A stretch of 36,304 nucleotides of DNA from a bacterium (GCA_030524925.1 JAUNFS010000005.1:9654-45957), one strand, 5' to 3'. Numbered from the stretch's first letter, positions 3,224 through 18,159 are shown. The notes: a model not told the origin generated them from the letters alone. Made by a program: numbers and translations.

Positions 3224-4432
3224 TTGAAATTAATAGATATTGATGCTTGTGGTAGTATTTTTAAAAAAGTTAAAATGAGTGAGTATAAGATAGTTAGTTT
3301 AACTGATGGTACTGGACCTTTTTATAAGTTAGATACATCTGATGTTTTGAGTAGACCACACAGGAATATTTATTTAAAGATAGGGACGGGTTTATATATT
3401 TATACAGAAAATGAAGAACTACTTGATGAAGCTAGAAGCTGGGTTACAGATATTGAGGAAGTAGAAGATGGGGAGTATGCAATTACTCATAAAGATTATT
3501 TTATTTTTAGAGACAGTTTTATAGATAGAAGTGTTAGTGATAGATATAAAAAGATTCTTAGAGATATAACTAAGTATAGTAAACCAGTTTATACGTTAGA
3601 TGATAATAATATAGTGGGTTCTTTAAGTGAAGCTAAAGATAGTAATCAAAGATATGAGCTTGGGTATTTAATTCCTAGATATAAAATAGAAGAGTTACTT
3701 GATAATGGAGTAGATAATATGCCTTTTAAAGAGGATATAGATGTATATACATTAACGGTAAATGGGTTTGTTAAAAGAAGTGTAGTGGATGCTTTAGATA
3801 TTCCTAGAACAGTTATTAAAAGTGAAAAAAGTGATTATAAGAAAGCTAAAAAAATGGGATTATTTTATAGATTTAATCCGCTTGAAAAAAGGCCAGTATT
3901 TTTAGATAATGCTTCGCAAGTTGAGTTTGAGCCAGTTAATATGACTAGTGATGGTTTAGTTATTTATAAGAAGAGTATTAAAATAGTTCAAAATATGCAT
4001 AAGGCAGAGTATTTTGATGCGATGATGGATAATAATAATTTTGCCGGTTTAGAGGTAGATGAAAGTGCTATGCCTAAAGAGATTTACGATATTTTAGTAA
4101 GATTGTATGGCTCTAATGATAAGAATATTGTTGGGGTGTTTGATAAGCTTGTTAAAGATATATTTTTAACTTATGATAAACCAAGTAAGGAGTTTGTTAA
4201 TTTATGTAAGAAATGCGGACTAGATCCAAATTTAGGTTATCAAAATTTGTATCAAATATTTGGAGTGGTTTCTCCATCACTTGGGTTTGATGAAGAAAGT
4301 TATATTAGGCTTAAAGATTTAGTAGATTCTTTAGAAGAGTTTGATGAATATCCGGCTGAAAAGAATAAAAATTTATATACTAGACAAAATGAAAAGGAAA
4401 GAGAAAAAGATATTACAGTTCAAGGATTGTAG
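3224..4432 (+). CDS. Unrecognised 402-residue protein downstream of ylbL
   Basis: I do not recognise this family. The longest frame begins at an ATG at 3209 inside ylbL, but TTG 3224 fits the GGGGGA ribosome-binding site at 3211-3216 and I prefer it (start MKLIDIDACG). The protein is soluble, acidic and lysine-rich, with no signal peptide or membrane segment. Repeated short segments (an IYLKIGTGLYIYTE patch near residue 65; a YKKAKKMGLFYRFNP patch near 210) suggest a multidomain fold. The C-terminal 30 residues are charged and probably disordered. Codon use matches its neighbours, and co-transcription with ylbL suggests a shared cell-envelope or sporulation context; that is inference only. 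Confidence 0.7.
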   Translation: MKLIDIDACGSIFKKVKMSEYKIVSLTDGTGPFYKLDTSDVLSRPHRNIYLKIGTGLYIYTENEELLDEARSWVTDIEEVEDGEYAITHKDYFIFRDSFIDRSVSDRYKKILRDITKYSKPVYTLDDNNIVGSLSEAKDSNQRYELGYLIPRYKIEELLDNGVDNMPFKEDIDVYTLTVNGFVKRSVVDALDIPRTVIKSEKSDYKKAKKMGLFYRFNPLEKRPVFLDNASQVEFEPVNMTSDGLVIYKKSIKIVQNMHKAEYFDAMMDNNNFAGLEVDESAMPKEIYDILVRLYGSNDKNIVGVFDKLVKDIFLTYDKPSKEFVNLCKKCGLDPNLGYQNLYQIFGVVSPSLGFDEESYIRLKDLVDSLEEFDEYPAEKNKNLYTRQNEKEREKDITVQGL

Positions 4433-8948: not shown

Positions 8949-9341
8949 ATGTTAAGTAGAAGTGAATTAAGAGAGAAAGCGATGACGATTATTTATCAGA
9001 TTTCATTATATAAAAAAAATAAGATGGAGTTTGATGTTGATAGTGTTATTAAAGAGAATCTAGAAGTAGATAATGAGTTTGTTAAAGATTTAGTTTATGG
9101 AGTAATTACTAGTTATGATGAACTTGGAGAGCTTGCTAATAAATATTTAAAAAACTGGACAATAGATAGATTAGATATGACAGGAGCGTCTATTTTAAGA
9201 ATTGCTTTATATGAAATTAAGTATATGGACACACCAGATGTTGTAGTTATAAATGAAGCAGTAGAACTTGCTAAAAAATATAGTGATGATGATGTTAAGA
9301 ATATGATTAATGCGGTTTTAGATAAGGTAATAAATGATTAA
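8949..9341 (+). CDS. nusB: Transcription antitermination factor NusB
   Basis: All-helical RNA-binding protein that joins NusE/S10 on boxA of rRNA leaders. The C-terminal half is clear: LDMTGASILRIALYEIKYM, then PDVVVINEAVELAKKY and the final helix, as in NusB. The frame can be extended to 8907, but ATG 8949 follows GGGAAGGA at good spacing and gives the usual N-terminus (MLSRSELREKAM) and 130 residues. The stop overlaps the xseA start (TAATG), indicating translational coupling. In Bacilli nusB often heads the same group with folD between; folD is absent here. Confidence 0.93.
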   Translation: MLSRSELREKAMTIIYQISLYKKNKMEFDVDSVIKENLEVDNEFVKDLVYGVITSYDELGELANKYLKNWTIDRLDMTGASILRIALYEIKYMDTPDVVVINEAVELAKKYSDDDVKNMINAVLDKVIND

Positions 9342-10597
9342 TGGAGAAAAGGTATATTACAGTATCAACTTTAAATAGATATTTAAAGAATAAGTTTGAT
9401 ACTGACCCTAATATTCAAAGAGTTAGTATTAAGGGAGAAATATCAAATTTTAAAGGACATACTAGAGGACATTTATATTTTACTTTGAAAGATGAAGAAG
9501 GAAGAATAAATGCGGTGATGTTTTCTTTTAATGCTATTAAGCTAACTTTTGTGCCTGAAGATGGAATGAAAGTTCTTGTTACAGGAAGGGTTTCTGTTTA
9601 TCCAGTTACTGGGTCATATCAGATTTATGTTGAAGAGATGGAATGTGATGGGCTTGGTAATTTATATTTAAAGTATGAAGAATTAAAAAAAGAACTTGCT
9701 AAAAAAGGATTATTTGATGCTGAACATAAGAAAAAGATACCAAAGTATCCTTCTAAGATTGGCGTAGTTACAGCACCTACGGGAGCAGCTATTAAAGATA
9801 TTCTTAGTACAATTAAAAGAAGATTTCCAATTGCAAGTACGATACTTTTTCCTTGTTTAGTTCAAGGAGAACTTGCTAAAGATGATATTGTTAGAGCCAT
9901 AGGTGAAGCCGAAAAATATGATTTAGATGTTTTGATTGTTGGTAGAGGCGGTGGTTCTATTGAGGATTTGTGGGCATTTAATGAAGAGTGCGTTGCTAAT
10001 GCAATATATAACTGCTCAATTCCCGTAATAAGTGCAGTTGGTCATGAGATTGACTTTACGATTGCTGATTTTGTAGCGGATTTAAGAGCACCAACACCAA
10101 CGGGAGCAGCTGAGATGGCTGTACCTAATTTAAGTGATTTAATAACTTATTTAGAACAAATTAAGATTAGAAGTACCAAGAGTATTACTAATAAGTTAGA
10201 AATATTTAATAATAGATTAAATGATATTAAGAGTAGTTATGTGCTTAGAAATCCATTAGCTGTTTATGAGATTAAAGAGCAGAAATTATCTAGTATTATT
10301 ACTAATTTAAATAATTTAATTAAGAATAAGTTATTAGTTAGTAAGACTAAGTATAATCATATAATTAGTTCTTACATATTAAATAATCCTGAGGATTTGT
10401 TTAAGAAAGATGAACATGCTTATAAGCTTTTAATAAATAAATTAGAACTTTTAAATCCAGTTAGTATACTATCTAAGGGATATAGTATTGTAAAAATGGG
10501 TGATAAAGTAATTAAGAGTGAAAAGGATGTTAAAAATAAAGATATAGTAAATATTAAACTTTTTGATGGAGAGTTTAGTGCTGAGGTTAGAAAGTGA
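9341..10597 (+). CDS. xseA: Exodeoxyribonuclease VII large subunit
   Basis: 418 residues, normal for XseA, the catalytic subunit of the ATP-independent single-strand exonuclease. The order is an N-terminal OB-fold (ISTFKG-like SIKGEISNFKGHTRGHLYFTLKD), the catalytic domain with VVTAPTGAAIKDI, VGRGGGSIEDLWAFNEE and SAVGHEIDFTIADFVADLRAPTPTGAAE, then a long coiled coil and a C-terminal beta region (LSKGYSIVK). It overlaps nusB by one base and is followed 7 bases later by xseB. Confidence 0.96.
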   Translation: MEKRYITVSTLNRYLKNKFDTDPNIQRVSIKGEISNFKGHTRGHLYFTLKDEEGRINAVMFSFNAIKLTFVPEDGMKVLVTGRVSVYPVTGSYQIYVEEMECDGLGNLYLKYEELKKELAKKGLFDAEHKKKIPKYPSKIGVVTAPTGAAIKDILSTIKRRFPIASTILFPCLVQGELAKDDIVRAIGEAEKYDLDVLIVGRGGGSIEDLWAFNEECVANAIYNCSIPVISAVGHEIDFTIADFVADLRAPTPTGAAEMAVPNLSDLITYLEQIKIRSTKSITNKLEIFNNRLNDIKSSYVLRNPLAVYEIKEQKLSSIITNLNNLIKNKLLVSKTKYNHIISSYILNNPEDLFKKDEHAYKLLINKLELLNPVSILSKGYSIVKMGDKVIKSEKDVKNKDIVNIKLFDGEFSAEVRK

Positions 10598-10891: not shown

Positions 10892-10923
10892 AGAAATGCA
10901 CCTTTGAAAGGGGTATGATTATT

Positions 10924-12246
10924 TTGAATAATAAAATTGATAGATTATTAGAGTATATTGTTAAAGGAGAGACTATTACACTTGAACTTTTAAAAAAGTG
11001 TGGATTTCGTGATGAAGATATAGAGTATTTATTAGAAAGTGGATATCTTGGCTATAGAAATGATGTTTATTATTTAAAAGATGTTAATGATTTACTTTAT
11101 TTAGGAACTTGCTATGCTAGTAAAAGAGTAGATGGTGTAGCAATAATGATATTTGAAAAATGTTTAGAATTTTGTCCTAGTAATGTAGAAGCAAGAAAAA
11201 GATTGATTACTAGATATTTATTTCTTGGCGAGTATAGAAAAGCAAAGACAGAGTTTGCAGTATTAAAAAGTTATGATGAGTCTATGACATTAAATGATTA
11301 TAGATTAGGCTTAATGATTTTTGATTATATTTTAAATACTAGACAATGTGATTTTTCTATTGAAGATATAGCATTTAATGGAGTACCAAATACTGATATA
11401 TTTGTATCTAATCAAGTTATGAGAACCAATGTATTACAAATGAGATTTCCAACGGCTTTAGCAGCTGCTAATGATATTTATTTTGATGAGGTTTTTGATG
11501 TGGCTGATAAAACTTATTATAACATTTTTAAAACTTTACTTTCTTCTGCGACAACAATTTATTATGAAAATAGACGCAAAATTAATAATTTTTTAAGTGA
11601 AGGAAAGTTTAATGAAGCAAGAGTATTTTTAAAGGCGTATGCCGTTAATGGTAATGTTTCTCGTAAGGATTCATATTTATTATTACTTTTAGAAAGATTA
11701 AATGATATTAAAAGTGGTAAAGAGGTTAAAGTTAATTCTAAGGGAACTTATAAGAATATTTTTGATGCAATTTTAAGTAATGATTTTTACGAAGCTAGAA
11801 GAATTAATAATGCTCATTTATATATGGATAATGGAGATGGTATGGGGCTTGTATTAGATGAAATAATTTCGTTAATTGAAAGTAAAGAACAGGATAAACC
11901 TATTTATAAAGAAATTAGAGTAAGGCTTACAAAAGCAAATAAGAGAGAGTTTATTCCATATTTACTTGATTTAGCGAGAGTGTCAGAGGCAGAGTATGAT
12001 AGGGGTTATAGTAAAGTTAAATTTGCTTTAGGCCTTATTGAAGCTGGAGCAGAGTCATTTTCTTTAAATAGTTATATTGATAAATTTTATGAGTGTTTAG
12101 GTAGTAAAGATTTAAATAAAGCAAATCTTTATAAAAATGTGATTATTTCTTTAGCACCAGCTTTAGGAAAAGACATAGATTCGCTTGCACTTAATCAAGC
12201 ACTTAATACTGTAGCACTTAGAAAGCCAGAAGAGTTTACTGTTTAG
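10924..12246 (+). CDS. Winged-helix-like + TPR-like repeat protein (paralog 1)
   Basis: 440 residues from TTG 10924, which sits 10 bases after AAAGGGG; the in-frame ATG at 10915 is too close to that site. The first ~60 residues read like a small winged-helix domain (ETITLELLKKCGF...IEYLLESGYLGYRNDVYYLKD), a pattern shared with AbiEi/type-IV-antitoxin-like N-termini. The rest is helical with TPR/SEL1-like periodicity (CLEFCPSNVEARKRLI, FLGEYRKAKTEF, SEGKFNEARVFLKAYA). It is homologous along its length to the product at 15853-18159. No membrane segment, so cytoplasmic. Function unknown; family-level analogies suggest a regulator or scaffold. It lies directly upstream of spoIVB behind its own terminator. 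Confidence 0.7.
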   Translation: MNNKIDRLLEYIVKGETITLELLKKCGFRDEDIEYLLESGYLGYRNDVYYLKDVNDLLYLGTCYASKRVDGVAIMIFEKCLEFCPSNVEARKRLITRYLFLGEYRKAKTEFAVLKSYDESMTLNDYRLGLMIFDYILNTRQCDFSIEDIAFNGVPNTDIFVSNQVMRTNVLQMRFPTALAAANDIYFDEVFDVADKTYYNIFKTLLSSATTIYYENRRKINNFLSEGKFNEARVFLKAYAVNGNVSRKDSYLLLLLERLNDIKSGKEVKVNSKGTYKNIFDAILSNDFYEARRINNAHLYMDNGDGMGLVLDEIISLIESKEQDKPIYKEIRVRLTKANKREFIPYLLDLARVSEAEYDRGYSKVKFALGLIEAGAESFSLNSYIDKFYECLGSKDLNKANLYKNVIISLAPALGKDIDSLALNQALNTVALRKPEEFTV

Positions 12247-12258: not shown

Positions 12259-12317
12259 GGTAAATATTGGTTTGTGTTTTTAGTGTATATTTAGCCATAA
12301 TAATAATGGTGAATGAT

Positions 12318-13277
12318 ATGAAAAAGAAGGTTATTTTACTTTTATTAATGATTTTTCCTTTTAATGTATTTGCTTATTCCGATTATATAATACCTGGAGG
12401 AAAAAGTATTGGTATTGATATAAAAAATGATGGGGTTGTGGTTACTGGTTTCTATCGGTTAAAGAATGGGGTTAATAAGAATAATTTAAAAGTTGGCGAT
12501 ATTATAAAGAAAGTAAATGATATATCTATAGAGTCAATAGATGATTTAATTAATACAGTTTCTACTGAGGTTAAAGATAATATGGTTAATTTTACTATTA
12601 AAAGAAATGGTAAGTTAGAGGTTATCCCTTTTGAGATGGTTTATGAAAATGATAATTATAAGACTGGATTGTATGTTAAAGATGGTGTTTCAGGAATTGG
12701 GACTTTATCTTATATTGATCCAGAAAGTAAGATATTTGGGGCTTTAGGGCATGAGATAATTATTGGTGATACTGGAGCTTTAGTTGAGGTAAAAAGTGGT
12801 ACTATTTTTAAAAGTAGTGTTACTAGTATAGATAAAAGTATAAAAGGAGTGCCTGGAACTAAGAATGCAAAGTTTTATTCTAAGAATGTTTATGGTAATG
12901 TAGTTAAGAATACTAATAAAGGAATTTATGGTACTTATAGTGATGATATTACCAATATGGAAACTTTAAAAGTTGGTAAGTTTGATGATATCAAGTTAGG
13001 TACTGCTTATATTTATACAGTTATAAGTGATAATGAAATAAAGAAATATGAAATAGATATTGATGATAAAAAAGCTGGTAGTATTAAGAATTTACACTTT
13101 AAAATAGTTAGTGAAGAACTAATTAATAAAACTGGTGGTATTGTTCAAGGAATGAGTGGAAGCCCTATTGTACAAAATGATATGATTATTGGAGCAGTAA
13201 CTCATGTAATTGTTGATAATCCAGTTACAGGATATGGGATACTTATTACAAATATGTTAGAAGAAGGAGAGCGTTAG
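12318..13277 (+). CDS. spoIVB: SpoIVB peptidase (S55)
   Basis: SpoIVB is the forespore serine protease that crosses the intermembrane space and cleaves SpoIVFA to activate sigma-K processing. ATG 12318 follows GGTGA and yields 319 residues with a signal/anchor (LLLLMIFPFNVFA), a PDZ domain (about 28-108) and an S55 domain. Motifs: IGTLSYIDPESKIFGALGHEI (His145) and GGIVQGMSGSPIVQ (serine 280/282), then IGAVTHVIVDNPVTGYGI. It is about 100 residues shorter than B. subtilis SpoIVB, mainly at the N-terminus. Usually recN precedes it; here a TPR-like gene does. The last codons and terminator are duplicated at 15733. Confidence 0.92.
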   Translation: MKKKVILLLLMIFPFNVFAYSDYIIPGGKSIGIDIKNDGVVVTGFYRLKNGVNKNNLKVGDIIKKVNDISIESIDDLINTVSTEVKDNMVNFTIKRNGKLEVIPFEMVYENDNYKTGLYVKDGVSGIGTLSYIDPESKIFGALGHEIIIGDTGALVEVKSGTIFKSSVTSIDKSIKGVPGTKNAKFYSKNVYGNVVKNTNKGIYGTYSDDITNMETLKVGKFDDIKLGTAYIYTVISDNEIKKYEIDIDDKKAGSIKNLHFKIVSEELINKTGGIVQGMSGSPIVQNDMIIGAVTHVIVDNPVTGYGILITNMLEEGER

Positions 13278-13280
13278 GCT
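13250..13280 (+). repeat. 31-bp direct repeat, copy 1 (3' end of spoIVB)
   Basis: Covers the last nine codons of spoIVB (MLEEGER and stop) and the first part of its terminator. It is identical to 15733-15763, 2,483 bases away, and bounds the cassette between them. Confidence 0.93.
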
Positions 13281-13286
13281 CTTTTT
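13268..13286 (+). terminator. Intrinsic terminator of spoIVB
   Basis: AGAGC (13268-13272) pairs with GCTCT (13278-13282), loop GTTAG, then T5. Confidence 0.75.
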
Positions 13287-13291
13287 GTATG

Positions 13292-13323
13292 AAAAAAATC
13301 CATTATATGGATGGATTTTTTTG
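13292..13323 (-). terminator. Strong bidirectional hairpin, terminator of the Cys-rich peptide gene
   Basis: A7TCCAT (13292-13303) pairs with ATGGAT7 (13311-13322). T-tracts occur on both strands. It lies seven bases after the stop of the minus-strand peptide gene and just inside the first direct repeat. Confidence 0.8.
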
Positions 13324-13329
13324 AAAATA

Positions 13330-13476
13330 CTAATCTACCAGTTTATTAATAGCTTCTTTTATATTTGTAGATATTGCTTGTGCTCCACAGTTACAATTAC
13401 AAGTGCCGCAGTTGCATGTTGAACTAGTAGTTATATTGTTTCTGTATTTTCTTTTAGATTTTTCTGGTTTAATCAT
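13330..13476 (-). CDS. 48-residue Cys-rich peptide, candidate RiPP precursor
   Basis: A small ORF found by reading the gap upstream of the methyltransferase. Its ATG (minus strand, 13476) follows a perfect AGGAGGT at ideal spacing, and a consensus promoter lies just upstream. Architecture: a basic N-terminus (MIKPEKSKRKYRNN), a Thr/Ser-rich stretch, the core CNCGTCNCNCG at residues 21-31 with five cysteines (21, 23, 26, 28, 30) separated by Asn and Gly, and a helical tail GAQAISTNIKEAINKLVD. No signal peptide. It is divergent from an operon encoding a radical SAM/SPASM enzyme. Cys-rich short peptides beside such enzymes are usual substrates for thioether (sactipeptide/ranthipeptide-like) cross-linking; SCIFF is the best known clostridial example, but this sequence is not SCIFF. 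The placement of the Cys block before a 17-residue tail is unusual. Product structure is inferred. Confidence 0.8.
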   Translation of the reverse strand: MIKPEKSKRKYRNNITTSSTCNCGTCNCNCGAQAISTNIKEAINKLVD

Positions 13477-13493
13477 AAATACCTCCTAAATTA

Positions 13494-13522
13494 ATTATAA
13501 GCTAATATTATAAAAATTGCAA
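13494..13522 (-). promoter_or_regulatory. Promoter of the Cys-rich peptide gene
   Basis: On the minus strand: TTGCAA (13522-13517), 17-nt spacer, TATAAT (13499-13494). It shares its -35 hexamer with the plus-strand promoter. Confidence 0.72.
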
Positions 13523-13545
13523 AGTAGATTTATTTTGTGTATAAT
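13517..13545 (+). promoter_or_regulatory. Promoter of the methyltransferase/radical SAM operon
   Basis: TTGCAA (13517-13522), 17-nt spacer, TATAAT (13540-13545). GAGG ribosome-binding site begins about 8 bases after the -10. Confidence 0.75.
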
Positions 13546-13564
13546 ATTTTTTGAGGTTGATTCT

Positions 13565-14398
13565 ATGAAAAAGAAGACTGATTATTTTAAAGATTTTATT
13601 TTTAATAATAATATTTTTATTTGTCCACTGTGTAAAGAAAACTTAGAATTTTTTGGACAAACTTTCAGATGTAAAAACAATCATACTTTTGATTTATCTT
13701 CTAAAGGAACTGTAAATTTAATAAAAACAAAAAATTACAAGAGTAGTGAATTATATAATAAAGACTTGTTTTCAAATCGTCGTTTATTTATTTTAAGTAA
13801 TTTTTATAATGATATTTATCAAAAAATATGTGAAATAATACCAAAATCTGAGAATGCTTATGTTATGTTAGACGTTGGATGCGGTGAAGCTAGTCATTCT
13901 ATTAATATATTAAATAAAATGCGTTCGCCTTATTTATATTATGGATTTGATTATTCTAGTGATGCAATAAATATGGCATCAGATTTTTTGGGTGATAATA
14001 GAATTTTTTTTAAAGCTAGTGTGGATAATATTCCGATTAAATCAAACAGTGTAGATATAATTTTAGATTTTCTTTCACCGTTTAATGAAAAGGAATTTAA
14101 AAGGGTTTTGAAAAATAATGGTGTGATAATAAAAATTTCACCTGGCAAAGAGTATTTAAAGGAATTAAGAAAAGAGTTAGCACTTAATGAGTATTCCAAA
14201 GAAGAAGAAGTTTTTTTAAACATAAAAAATAAATTTGATATCGTAAAAAAAGATAAATATATTAATGAATTTAAACTGAGCAAAGAACAACTTAATTACT
14301 TAGTAAAAATGACTCCAATTAAATATGGTGGTGAAATAAATTTAATAAATAGAATAACAATTGATATGAATATTTATGTTTTGAAGGTGAAATCATGA
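13565..14398 (+). CDS. RlmA-type 23S rRNA (guanine-N1) methyltransferase
   Basis: 277 residues from ATG 13565 (GAGGTTGA before it). The N-terminal zinc ribbon has Cys20-x2-Cys23 and Cys36-x3-His40 followed by FDLSSKGTVNLI, the hallmark of RlmA/RlmA(II)/TlrB enzymes that methylate G745 or G748 in helix 35 of 23S rRNA at the peptide exit tunnel. The SAM site is MLDVGCGEASHS (101-112). TlrB confers resistance to tylosin. The gene overlaps the radical SAM gene by ATGA and lies in the repeat-bounded cassette, so it may protect the ribosome from the peptide product; a housekeeping RlmA role is the alternative. Lys is almost always AAA, unlike the neighbours. Confidence 0.82.
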   Translation: MKKKTDYFKDFIFNNNIFICPLCKENLEFFGQTFRCKNNHTFDLSSKGTVNLIKTKNYKSSELYNKDLFSNRRLFILSNFYNDIYQKICEIIPKSENAYVMLDVGCGEASHSINILNKMRSPYLYYGFDYSSDAINMASDFLGDNRIFFKASVDNIPIKSNSVDIILDFLSPFNEKEFKRVLKNNGVIIKISPGKEYLKELRKELALNEYSKEEEVFLNIKNKFDIVKKDKYINEFKLSKEQLNYLVKMTPIKYGGEINLINRITIDMNIYVLKVKS

Positions 14399-15720
14399 TA
14401 TCTAAATACACAAAAAGTATATTATTAAAAAGGAATTTGTATGCAATTTATAATAGTTATATTTTAGAACCAATATTTGTAAATAAAAAAGAGAAAGAAA
14501 AAATATTATCTAATAATTTTGATGATATGTCAGCTGAAGAAATAAAATATTTAAAAAAAATAGGAATAGTTGTTAATGATGAGTTGATTGATAAAAAAAC
14601 AATTCAAATTGTAAAAAATTCTTATAAAAAATTTATAGAAAACAAAATAACGATTATGTATCTTATTCCTACAAATTGTTGCAATTTATCTTGCAAGTAT
14701 TGCTTTATTGGTAATTTAACTAGTTCGGAGATTAAAATGAAATTAGATACTGCCAAAAAGGCAGTGGATTTGTTCGCAGAACATTTAGCAAAAATAAATG
14801 AGAATGGAGAAATATTTTTTTATGGTGCAGAACCTTTATTAAATTTTTCTTTAATTGAATATGTTGTAATATATTGCAAGCAAAAAAAATATAAAATAAA
14901 GTTTTCTATGGTATCTAATGGTTTGCTATTAAATGAAAATATTATAGAGTTTATTAAATACAACAAAATTTCTTTAGGAATATCTATTGATGGTCCTAAA
15001 GAAATTACTAATACAAATAGAATATATAAAAATAGTAGTATTGGTATTTATGATGATTTGATAGAGAAAATAACTTTATTAAAACAACATAATGTTAATT
15101 TTGGATTGTCTATAACTGTAGCACCTATTTTTTTAAAAAGTCAGGATATGTTTATAGATTGGCTTAAAAGTTTAAACGTTAAAAATATTAGCTATAATTT
15201 GCTACATTTTACTCAGCCTAATGATGAGTGGAAGAATTATTATAAAGAGGCTGTTAAATTCATATATAAATCTAATAATCAGTTATTTGATTTAGGATTT
15301 AATGAGGATAGAATAAATAGAAAGTATATTGCATTTTTTGAAAAAAAGTTTAAATTTAGTGATTGCGGTGCTGTCGGAGGCAACCAAATTACGATATGTC
15401 CTGATGGAACCATTGAAGTTTGCCATGGTTATTGGAATAGTGAAATTCATAAATTACCAAATATAAATAATATTAACCATTTAGATGATTTGTTTGTTTT
15501 AGATGATTATAATTGTTGGAAAAATTATATGTCAATAAAAAAACACAAATGTATTAATTGTCCATATGTTTACATTTGTGGCGGTGGTTGTGCTATGCAA
15601 GCTAGAGATGTTTTTGGTAGTGAAAAAAATATAGATAAAGCTTTTTGCATTTATACAAAAATTATGATGAAATATATTTTACTTGAACTTTATGATGAAT
15701 CAGTTCATAAAAATAGATAA
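14395..15720 (+). CDS. Radical SAM/SPASM peptide maturase
   Basis: 441 residues. An N-terminal region of about 85 residues looks like the small winged-helix recognition domain found in peptide-modifying radical SAM enzymes. The radical SAM core has Cys96-x3-Cys100-x2-Cys103 (TNCCNLSCKYCF), GGEP-like YGAEP near 144-148 and SISIDGP-like ISIDGP near 197-202. The SPASM domain is canonical: Cys324-x13-Gly-x4-Cys343, then Cys386-x2-Cys389-x5-Cys395-x3-Cys399 and Cys418, ligands for two auxiliary [4Fe-4S] clusters. Such enzymes install thioether or C-C bonds in ribosomal peptides; sulfatase maturases share the fold, but no sulfatase is present and a Cys-rich peptide is. AAGGTGA and the ATGA overlap couple it to the methyltransferase. 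Strong AAA lysine bias suggests transfer. Confidence 0.85.
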   Translation: MISKYTKSILLKRNLYAIYNSYILEPIFVNKKEKEKILSNNFDDMSAEEIKYLKKIGIVVNDELIDKKTIQIVKNSYKKFIENKITIMYLIPTNCCNLSCKYCFIGNLTSSEIKMKLDTAKKAVDLFAEHLAKINENGEIFFYGAEPLLNFSLIEYVVIYCKQKKYKIKFSMVSNGLLLNENIIEFIKYNKISLGISIDGPKEITNTNRIYKNSSIGIYDDLIEKITLLKQHNVNFGLSITVAPIFLKSQDMFIDWLKSLNVKNISYNLLHFTQPNDEWKNYYKEAVKFIYKSNNQLFDLGFNEDRINRKYIAFFEKKFKFSDCGAVGGNQITICPDGTIEVCHGYWNSEIHKLPNINNINHLDDLFVLDDYNCWKNYMSIKKHKCINCPYVYICGGGCAMQARDVFGSEKNIDKAFCIYTKIMMKYILLELYDESVHKNR

Positions 15721-15732
15721 TAGCATTTAATT

Positions 15733-15763
15733 AAATATGTTAGAAGAAGGAGAGCGTTAGGCT
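15733..15763 (+). repeat. 31-bp direct repeat, copy 2 (spoIVB 3'-end remnant)
   Basis: Perfect copy of 13250-13280. It starts 12 bases after the radical SAM stop and reads as an orphan MLEEGER-stop plus terminator. With a T8 tract after it, it probably acts as the terminator of the cassette operon. Confidence 0.93.
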
Positions 15764-15789
15764 TTTTTTTGATTTTACTAGAGAATTCA

Positions 15790-15852: not shown

Positions 15853-18159
15853 ATGTTAAATAAGGATGTTTTGGTTAATTTATATGAAAGTGATTTTCTT
15901 ACAGGTGATATAAGTACAAAAAATCTTAATGCTTTAGGTATTAATGGAAATAACATTGGTAAGTTAGTTAATGATGGGGTGCTTGCTAGAGTGTGCTGGG
16001 GAGTTTATGAGTTTAAAGACTTAGATGGGCTTGTCTTATATGGGAAAAAATTATTTGATGAGGGAAAGTTTGCTAAAGCTGAGAGGGTTTTTCTTAAGTG
16101 TTATGAGTTAGATAGTACTAACGATGATGTGTTGATGCATCTTTTTGGGCTTAGAATTTTTAATTCGGATTTTGATGGTAGTATAAAATATTTAAGGAGC
16201 TTACTTAATAGTAGCGATTCTAGTGTACAAAGCGATGCTGAGTTTTATCTTTTTATTATGAAATTTTTTAAAAAGCTTCCTGAAGATTTGTCTCAAAGAG
16301 AAAGAATTGCAGATAATTATTGTATAGATGAGAATTATAATTTAGTCAGACGTCTTGCTTATAAAGCTAGTTTTACTAGTGCTAATAAGGTTTTAAAGGA
16401 GTTTATTCATCCTGATGATTTAAAGAAAAAGATAACTAGTCAGTTACTTTCTTTAGCGGGGATTTATTTTAATAGAGGGGCTATTATTGATTTAATTAAG
16501 AATAAAAAATATAAGGAGTTATTAGATTATTATGAAACTAGAGTTCCTGCTGATGCACCAAAGTGTTCTGATAAAGTTGTAGTAGATATGTTAAGAGTGC
16601 TAAGTGGTGAAGAAGAAATTGCTAATTTAATGTTTAGTAGCCAGGAGACTGATGATTTTATAGATGCATTTTATCTTGGCAATTATAGACTGGCTTTGGA
16701 AATATCAGAAGAGAAACTTAAAAAGAGAGGGATTAATTTATATTCTAGTATTCCTTATCTTTTGCTTAGAGATTTAAATGAGAAAATAGATGAGTATAGT
16801 GTTAAACAGCAGTATTTATATATTATAGAGGTTTTACTTGGCAGTAATCCGGAGCGAGCTTTAGAACTTGTTGATATATATTTAGGAAATATTGGGGCTT
16901 TAAGATATAGTGTGTTAGTTAAAAATTTAATAAAGATTAGTATAAAAATGGGTGATATTAGTTTTGTTGATGCGATACTTGCTCTTACTAATGTTTCTTT
17001 TGATTCTTATGTTTTTGATGGGTCAATATATGTTAAAAGGTGTTGTGATGCGATTGATGCTGGAAAGTTTGAAATAGCACAGCTATATTTAGAGATAGTA
17101 AAATCTAATCCTGAGATAAGAAAGCATCCAAATATTATTAAGTCGCTTGAAAATTTACTTGAAGGAGCTAGTGCGATTACGAAGCAAGATAAGCAGAGTT
17201 GTGAAGTGGTAGCATTAAAAGAAAAGGAGCCTGCTCCGGTTAAAGAAGAGGCAAAGCCAGCAATGCCAGAAAAAGAGAATCTTGATGCAGCTGTATTGAA
17301 AACAGCAAATTACAATAATAGTTTATATGCTGATGTAATAGTTAAAAAAGTACGTGCTACTGGAGATATTGAACTAATTCCAAATTTAAACAAGGCTCAT
17401 ATTAGAACTTTGAGAATGAAGTTTGATGCTTTTGATGGAATAAAAAGTTATGTTATTAAATACGCTGGAGAAGAATATTTGATGGTTAAACCTAGTAATT
17501 ATAAAAAAAGGAATTATGCTAAAATTATTGAAGAAGGCAAGTGGGCATCAACTAATGGAGATTATGAAAAGGCCCTTGCGGCATTTAAAGAGGTTTTAAA
17601 TAATCCTTATGTTACGGGTGGTAATTTAGCAAGTATTGGATATGTGTATACTAAAATGGGTAGATCTTTTGATGCAGTGCCTTACTTTAAAGCAGCAACT
17701 TTCTTTAATAAAGGGCGAGGAAAAAATAAAGATTATACATGGCTTGTTGATAGTATTATGCAAAATAGTAAAGCACCAGCTAAAGATGATGATAAAAAGC
17801 CTTTTGTAAAAATGAGTGTAAATGATTTTATTAATCAAGATGAATATTATGGAATTAATGGTTTTGAGGAAATTTTAAATTATATGCTCACTAATAAAGT
17901 TAGTTTGCAAGATGCGTGTACTAGTCTTGGATATAGTGATGATGAAATTAATATTATTAGAATTATTTTTGCTAAGAAATATTATAAGCAAGGTGATGCT
18001 AGTAAGGGTGATGAATTTTTAAAAGCTGCTATACAAAGTGAAAAGAAGAGTGTGTTTGTACTTGGTCTTATTAAAGAGGTTCAAGCAAATAAAACATTAT
18101 ATACTTGTCAAAAAGAAGCTGAAGGACAAATACTTTCTTTAAATTTTAAAGTTAAATAG
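15853..18159 (+). CDS. Winged-helix-like + TPR-like repeat protein (paralog 2)
   Basis: 768 residues; ATG after AGAGGAG. The N-terminal domain (DISTKNLNALGINGNNIGKLVNDGVLARVCWGVYEFKD) matches that of the product at 10924-12246 and resembles AbiEi-type winged helices, where the last part reads GVLxRVxxGVY. A TPR-like solenoid follows (EGKFAKAERVFLKCYELDSTNDDV and similar units). A Lys/Glu/Pro linker spans about 453-482. The C-terminal half has further TPR units (NGDYEKALAAFKEVLNNP...YVYTKMGRSFDAVPYF) and a helical end (VSLQDACTSLGYSDDEINII). No signal peptide or membrane segment. Role unknown; the paralog pair around spoIVB hints at a developmental or stress function, as inference. Confidence 0.75.
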   Translation: MLNKDVLVNLYESDFLTGDISTKNLNALGINGNNIGKLVNDGVLARVCWGVYEFKDLDGLVLYGKKLFDEGKFAKAERVFLKCYELDSTNDDVLMHLFGLRIFNSDFDGSIKYLRSLLNSSDSSVQSDAEFYLFIMKFFKKLPEDLSQRERIADNYCIDENYNLVRRLAYKASFTSANKVLKEFIHPDDLKKKITSQLLSLAGIYFNRGAIIDLIKNKKYKELLDYYETRVPADAPKCSDKVVVDMLRVLSGEEEIANLMFSSQETDDFIDAFYLGNYRLALEISEEKLKKRGINLYSSIPYLLLRDLNEKIDEYSVKQQYLYIIEVLLGSNPERALELVDIYLGNIGALRYSVLVKNLIKISIKMGDISFVDAILALTNVSFDSYVFDGSIYVKRCCDAIDAGKFEIAQLYLEIVKSNPEIRKHPNIIKSLENLLEGASAITKQDKQSCEVVALKEKEPAPVKEEAKPAMPEKENLDAAVLKTANYNNSLYADVIVKKVRATGDIELIPNLNKAHIRTLRMKFDAFDGIKSYVIKYAGEEYLMVKPSNYKKRNYAKIIEEGKWASTNGDYEKALAAFKEVLNNPYVTGGNLASIGYVYTKMGRSFDAVPYFKAATFFNKGRGKNKDYTWLVDSIMQNSKAPAKDDDKKPFVKMSVNDFINQDEYYGINGFEEILNYMLTNKVSLQDACTSLGYSDDEINIIRIIFAKKYYKQGDASKGDEFLKAAIQSEKKSVFVLGLIKEVQANKTLYTCQKEAEGQILSLNFKVK

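Follow-up and report, generated by a model that had tools for sequence, protein, structure and literature searches.

Ribosome-targeting RiPPs are known among dehydrated and azole-containing peptides, namely the thiopeptides with Tsr and the klebsazolicin-type peptides that act at the exit tunnel. Ranthipeptides, including SCIFF, are products of SPASM maturases (CteB, PapB) with a radical SAM cluster and two auxiliary clusters, and we know of no companion methyltransferase in these systems. The nearest curated family to the maturase described here is FibroRumin (maturase model TIGR04136, precursor model TIGR04135), in which a short, CxC-dense precursor likewise stands beside a SPASM enzyme; our literature search found no paper on FibroRumin, nor any that treats RlmA jointly with radical SAM enzymes and RiPPs. 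In Campylobacter, the FibroRumin cluster is plasmid-borne and carries a UvrA-like ATPase but no RlmA-like enzyme. On plasmid p16187MP2 (L104 7346-9439) the ATPase gene follows the cluster and overlaps the maturase gene. The ATPase recalls the UvrA-like proteins that serve in self-resistance, and may give a clue to what the FibroRumin peptide targets. A separate line of enzymes, the 23S rRNA (guanine-N1)-methyltransferases RlmA(I), RlmA(II) and TlrB, combines a zinc ribbon with a SAM domain, and TlrB-type enzymes confer antibiotic resistance (PMC6851288).

Here we analyse a three-gene cassette in a 36,304-nt stretch of bacterial DNA (GCA_030524925.1 JAUNFS010000005.1:9654-45957; "the window") that combines a SPASM maturase, a Cys-rich precursor and an enzyme resembling RlmA over its whole length (Table 1). 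An earlier note on this DNA had described a minus-strand gene for a 48-residue Cys-rich peptide, a SPASM radical SAM neighbour and a zinc-ribbon methyltransferase overlapping the latter by ATGA; all three genes are present, and the overlap lies at 14395-14398. To this we add two points: the cassette is a mobile insertion, and its methyltransferase is more likely to serve immunity than maturation. The cassette differs from FibroRumin (maturase identity ~32%), and its core lacks the six-Cys-in-45 plan of SCIFF. Its methyltransferase, unlike RlmA and TlrB, is linked to a RiPP maturase and forms a separate clade. As with the thiopeptides and klebsazolicin-type compounds, a ribosomal peptide product would be paired with self-resistance at the level of the ribosome, but the core is Cys-rich and modified by radical SAM chemistry only, and the ribosomal target is one that we infer.

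Table 1 Features of the cassette and its insertion site in window coordinates
Feature	Position	Strand	Remarks
spoIVB	12315..13277	+	Host gene with the insertion at its 3' end
Left direct repeat	13250..13286	+	Terminal 28 nt of spoIVB and the gene's terminator
A+T-rich hairpin with T-run past the precursor stop	13292..13322	-	Likely bidirectional terminator; read by eye
Precursor peptide gene	13330..13476	-	48 aa; core SSTCNCGTCNCNCG; short, basic leader; helical C-terminal follower
Precursor-gene promoter, TTGCAA-17-TATAAT	13494..13522	-	
RlmA-like zinc-ribbon rRNA-type methyltransferase	13565..14398	+	277 aa; proposed self-immunity protein
Radical SAM/SPASM peptide maturase	14395..15720	+	441 aa; ATGA overlap with the methyltransferase
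Right direct repeat	15733..15769	+	36/37 identical copy

The product of the small ORF, MIKPEKSKRKYRNNITTSSTCNCGTCNCNCGAQAISTNIKEAINKLVD, holds five cysteines inside ten residues of its core. The earlier note had credited the gene with a perfect ribosome-binding site and a consensus promoter. AGGAGG, 5 nt ahead of the ATG, bears out the former; of the promoter, which agrees with the consensus at 10 of 12 positions, the -10 box is perfect and the -35 box matches at only four of six. The downstream hairpin has too few G-C pairs for a terminator scan. As a chance ORF the 48-codon frame can be rejected: a CxCxxCxCxC ORF occurs once in the window and in none of 60 Markov-1 resamplings of it, and, beyond resampling alone, conservation rules chance out. 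Purifying selection acts on its codons, with dN/dS of 0.04-0.13 in five of six precursor pairs; the sixth (G230/G169), in which the G169 maturase is broken, gave 0.41.

A search with the 48 residues through 386 genomes from the same family returned convincing relatives (E 9e-8 to 1e-3), and a profile search added more. Profile matches from the class's other families scored weakly, most of them in unrelated ORFs or in frames with stops, and were therefore not counted. In about a dozen further genera of the family, the same maturase has beside it a homologue with a CxCxxCxCxC core and a promoter of its own; a conserved precursor core adjoins the maturase in every complete locus. The cassette loci fall into three classes. 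Class A, to which the window belongs together with G296, G230, G452 and G492, has the core CNCGxCNCNCG, the methyltransferase and the maturase; further members are G035 (whose precursor, at a contig edge, was not recovered), G169 (maturase broken) and G441 (remaining locus lost at a contig edge), and a variant core, CNCGGSGHCNNCG, occurs in G383, from the window's own genus. Class B (G004, G323, G371, G304, G380) has the core CTCSNCNCNCK/N and the order methyltransferase, second methyltransferase, maturase, precursor, with a transposase-like gene separating maturase and precursor in G304. Class C (G089, G259, G298, G312) combines the core VCxSCACGGG...CNTTCKGC with the order GNAT, maturase, precursor. 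It has a GNAT, from a widespread family, instead of a methyltransferase, so that the latter is not a universal accessory. Its loci lie at L165 3335-5338, L166 7552-9537, L167 7266-9302 and L168 7412-9393, and three of the four have an amidohydrolase-like neighbour.

Common to these precursors is a plan of short leader, middle core and C-terminal tail (N...I/L..hY), with C21, C23, C26, N27, C28, N29 and C30 invariant in the cores of classes A and B. Upstream of every class A precursor lies a separate region with a ribosome-binding site, in most cases also with TTGACA/TATAAT-like boxes. According to the earlier note, a small ORF not conserved next to related maturases would refute its proposal; the ORF is conserved there in classes A, B and C, and this, with the purifying selection, upholds the proposal that the peptide is the maturase's substrate. 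We regard the evidence that it is the substrate as strong. The peptide had also seemed to fit no known precursor class, and indeed no NCBIfam or Pfam model matched it. TIGR04135 (cut-off 45 bits) gave no match at E<=10 to the window precursor or six homologues, while two Campylobacter FibroRumin precursors run as controls scored 55 and 62 bits. Judged by sequence, then, this is an uncharacterised precursor family with three core classes, outside the curated families.

Outside these genomes the system left little trace. The maturase found one distant match in the genome contig collection, only distant radical SAM proteins among viral contigs, and, among phages and plasmids, no listed match of 35% identity or more. 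Viral contigs held no relative of the methyltransferase, one unrelated phage-protein match to the class A core pattern and none to the class B pattern; no precursor was found in the phage collection.

All cluster cysteines expected by the earlier note are in place in the maturase: CxxxCxxC at 96/100/103 and seven SPASM cysteines (324, 343, 386, 389, 395, 399, 418), each kept in 17 of 17 homologues compared, so that the enzyme fits both the radical SAM motif and the SPASM pattern CX9-15GX4C-CX2CX5CX3C-C. A short Cys-containing precursor conserved beside such an enzyme is the mark of a SPASM RiPP. The maturase scored below every curated cut-off, including those of FibroRumin TIGR04136 (208.6 versus 400 bits), the second-best family PapB (157 versus 340 bits) and SCIFF TIGR03974 (105.7 versus 425 bits); the predicted product is a SPASM RiPP and, by these cut-offs, not a FibroRumin. 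An AlphaFold2 model was confident over the core (pLDDT >85) and poor at the N-terminus (pLDDT ~35), where it did not confirm a recognition domain. Its structural matches were, in order, CteB, anSME, ChlB, TigE and SuiB, and the fold is thus that of peptide-modifying SPASM enzymes. CteB, a thioether-forming maturase, was a match by sequence too. Enzymes close in fold also yield C-C bonds, formylglycine and other products; thioether formation is nevertheless the most likely chemistry, because cysteines are the sole strongly conserved reactive residues in the class A/B core, with Asn between them.

Inspecting the borders of the cassette revealed that the earlier note's interval, 13281-15763, approximates the block between two 37-nt direct repeats whose sequence has no further copy in the genome. 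The G+C content of the cassette, 23.2% against ~28-29% in its flanks, is the window's minimum. The repeats enclose three genes only and no recombinase, and the block is not an autonomous integrative element. At two spoIVB loci of the same genus no cassette stands beside spoIVB; neither is a clean empty site, since one lies at the end of its contig and in the other a different gene comes next. G452 shows the same arrangement as the window: its class A cassette lies at the 3' end of a host gene, with a duplicated terminator of 33 nt on its two sides. Between G230 and G169, which belong to different genera, homology of 89-95% is limited to the unit (L033 9798-12550), where the G169 deletion interrupts it; it ends on both sides, and the flanks are unrelated. 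Other relatives ride on serine-recombinase elements (L032, L034, L105, L106) or on a tyrosine-integrase element (L110). The cassette is mobile and moves as a block of ~2.5-2.75 kb.

One THI5-like ABC transporter operon recurs as a location of cassettes from every class, which lie within it or next to it (class A, G296; class B, G323 and G304; class C, G312; L032 5735-7325 and 14863-15645; L105 10463-12846; L107 9196-10720; L168 4727-7245); it could be an insertion hot spot or reflect a functional link. At L107, the class B cassette with the transposase-like gene stands between the copies of a near-perfect 176-bp direct repeat (3330-3505 and 9167-9342), part of which is the 3' end of the transporter's permease gene. 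In the window itself, spoIVB and the cassette are flanked by two TPR proteins that look like paralogues and resemble each other at the N-terminus (10915-12246 and 15853-18159).

The methyltransferase, METHYLTRANSFERASE, is a full-length RlmA relative (solved relative E. coli RlmA 1P91, E=1e-29) with an N-terminal zinc ribbon (CxxC...CxxxH; PF21302, 43.8 bits against a cut-off of 27) followed by a SAM domain. A mechanically called start at TTG 13517 was rejected in favour of ATG 13565. Zinc-ribbon residues 20, 23, 36 and 40 are kept in all 23 sequences, and the SAM motifs are retained; the score remains below the RlmA G745 equivalog cut-off (141.2 versus 303 bits), and AlphaFold2 run without an alignment gave a pLDDT of 40. 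Plasmids carry further relatives: on a Priestia plasmid, two RlmA-like methyltransferases surround an Msr ABC-F ribosome-protection gene (L171 6001-6873 and 9391-10296), and on ~3-kb staphylococcal plasmids one is the sole annotated gene (L170 1589-2410). These are possibly resistance genes.

Only 17 of the 386 family genomes have the methyltransferase and none other was found in the window's genome; it is therefore not a housekeeping gene in the family. The maturase occurs in 15 genomes and the two together in 10 (P=3e-12), where they adjoin each other or, in class B, are parted only by the second methyltransferase. Such linkage would suit an RlmA-like enzyme that tailors the peptide, for instance at Cys, Asn or a terminus, with the second methyltransferase of class B and the acetyltransferase of class C, at the equivalent place, as further tailoring enzymes. 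In line with this, every intact class A or B maturase has a methyltransferase adjacent to it, translationally coupled in the window, and the A/B split is identical in the methyltransferase and maturase trees. Against tailoring stand the complete RlmA architecture with its RNA-type zinc ribbon, the plasmid relatives adjoining ribosome-protection genes, and the fate of the gene where biosynthesis is lost. In six genomes (G021, G022, G208, G060, G103, G364) the methyltransferase has no maturase nearby. Those of G060, G103 and G364 are more distant from the cassette clades; the other three branch within clade A or B and have kept every zinc and SAM residue. The G022 enzyme is 90% identical to that of G371, which has a full cassette, at a dN/dS of 0.15; their DNA agrees at 91% across the methyltransferase gene with the region upstream of it and at 85% over the same serine recombinase, and in G022 Fic and HNH genes stand in place of the second methyltransferase, maturase and precursor. 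(In this sibling element, at L160 1310-3332, the Fic and HNH-endonuclease genes lie between methyltransferase and recombinase, as though the slot swapped cargo.) The methyltransferase is likewise intact in G169, with a ~970-bp internal maturase deletion, and in G452, whose maturase has an in-frame stop and a frameshift; no class A or B locus has an intact maturase beside a broken methyltransferase. These numbers are small, three solitary genes and two with a broken maturase, and a frameshift in a draft genome may be an assembly error.

A pure tailoring enzyme should not outlast its peptide, an immunity gene should, and we consider tailoring rather unlikely. We favour self-immunity, given that the methyltransferase, nested in the cassette clades, stays intact at loci whose biosynthetic genes are gone or damaged, and that the loop targeted by RlmA is kept. 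In the host 23S rRNA the sequence of helix 35 is CACGUUGUAAAGUG (CAC-GUUG-UAAA), so that G745 and G748 are present, numbered by our own alignment to the E. coli loop. RlmA(II)-type methylation of G748 confers tylosin resistance on Bacillus subtilis (PMC6851288) and changes the binding of telithromycin in Streptococcus pneumoniae (PMC4605293). Self-immunity would imply that the cross-linked RiPP is aimed at the ribosome.

The conserved unit holds neither an exporter nor a protease, and the one C39 exporter that turned up in the genome is encoded at another site, beside unrelated genes. This compactness, the peptide's separate promoter and carriage on mobile elements would also agree with an addiction-type module, in which the modified peptide is an intracellular translation toxin and the methyltransferase an antitoxin-like protector that stabilises the element. 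Yet the genome does encode the C39 exporter, modification would have to come before toxicity, and the persistence of intact precursor and methyltransferase genes after maturase loss says nothing for a toxin; we deem such a module improbable. Lack of a linked exporter or protease, together with a CxC-dense core like metal-binding motifs, could instead indicate a cross-linked or free metal binder of metallothionein or methanobactin type rather than an antibiotic. Strict pairing with a SPASM maturase, carriage on mobile elements and an rRNA-methylase partner do not suit metal storage, and we consider this reading highly improbable.

Our preferred model is thus one of an antibiotic with ribosomal self-protection. 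Divergent promoters would drive the precursor one way and methyltransferase plus maturase the other. The maturase would cross-link the Cys-rich middle, CNCGTCNCNCG, most likely by thioethers from Cys to neighbouring residues, with the short basic leader and the helical C-terminal tail serving as recognition and disposal parts; both would be cut off and the product exported by an unlinked transporter. The RlmA-like enzyme, first in its operon, would act on the producer's own 23S rRNA, methylating loop 745-748 of helix 35. This would protect the ribosome against the product, whose site of action would be the peptide exit tunnel. Between bacteria, the cassette would travel as a block on recombinase-bearing elements or insert with duplication of a host terminator. 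Taken as a whole (mobile cassette, thioether-cross-linked Cys-rich peptide, RlmA-like methylation as immunity, exit-tunnel target), we judge this model somewhat more probable than its opposite. Tentatively, and at slightly less than even probability, we go further and propose that the products are Cys-rich RiPPs of a class so far undescribed, cross-linked by radical SAM chemistry and inhibiting the ribosome at helix 35/the exit tunnel. They would have a dedicated RlmA-type 23S rRNA methyltransferase for immunity and would spread in small-genome gut-type bacteria as a three-gene cassette able to insert at host terminators without a recombinase of its own.

Self-resistance genes reveal targets, and if the methyltransferase is indeed an immunity protein, the cassette would point to a peptide antibiotic that targets the ribosome and is the work of a single radical SAM enzyme. 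At 2.4 kb the cassette is compact enough to be transferred and assayed in a single step. Its source bacteria are mostly known solely from metagenomes, and their small genomes, about 1 Mb in size, may indicate an uncultured lineage of gut-type Bacilli. For radical SAM chemistry it supplies an uncharacterised precursor family with three classes of core. For the bacteria themselves, the solitary methyltransferases would, if the immunity role is true, represent a ready-made resistance gene circulating in the same community.
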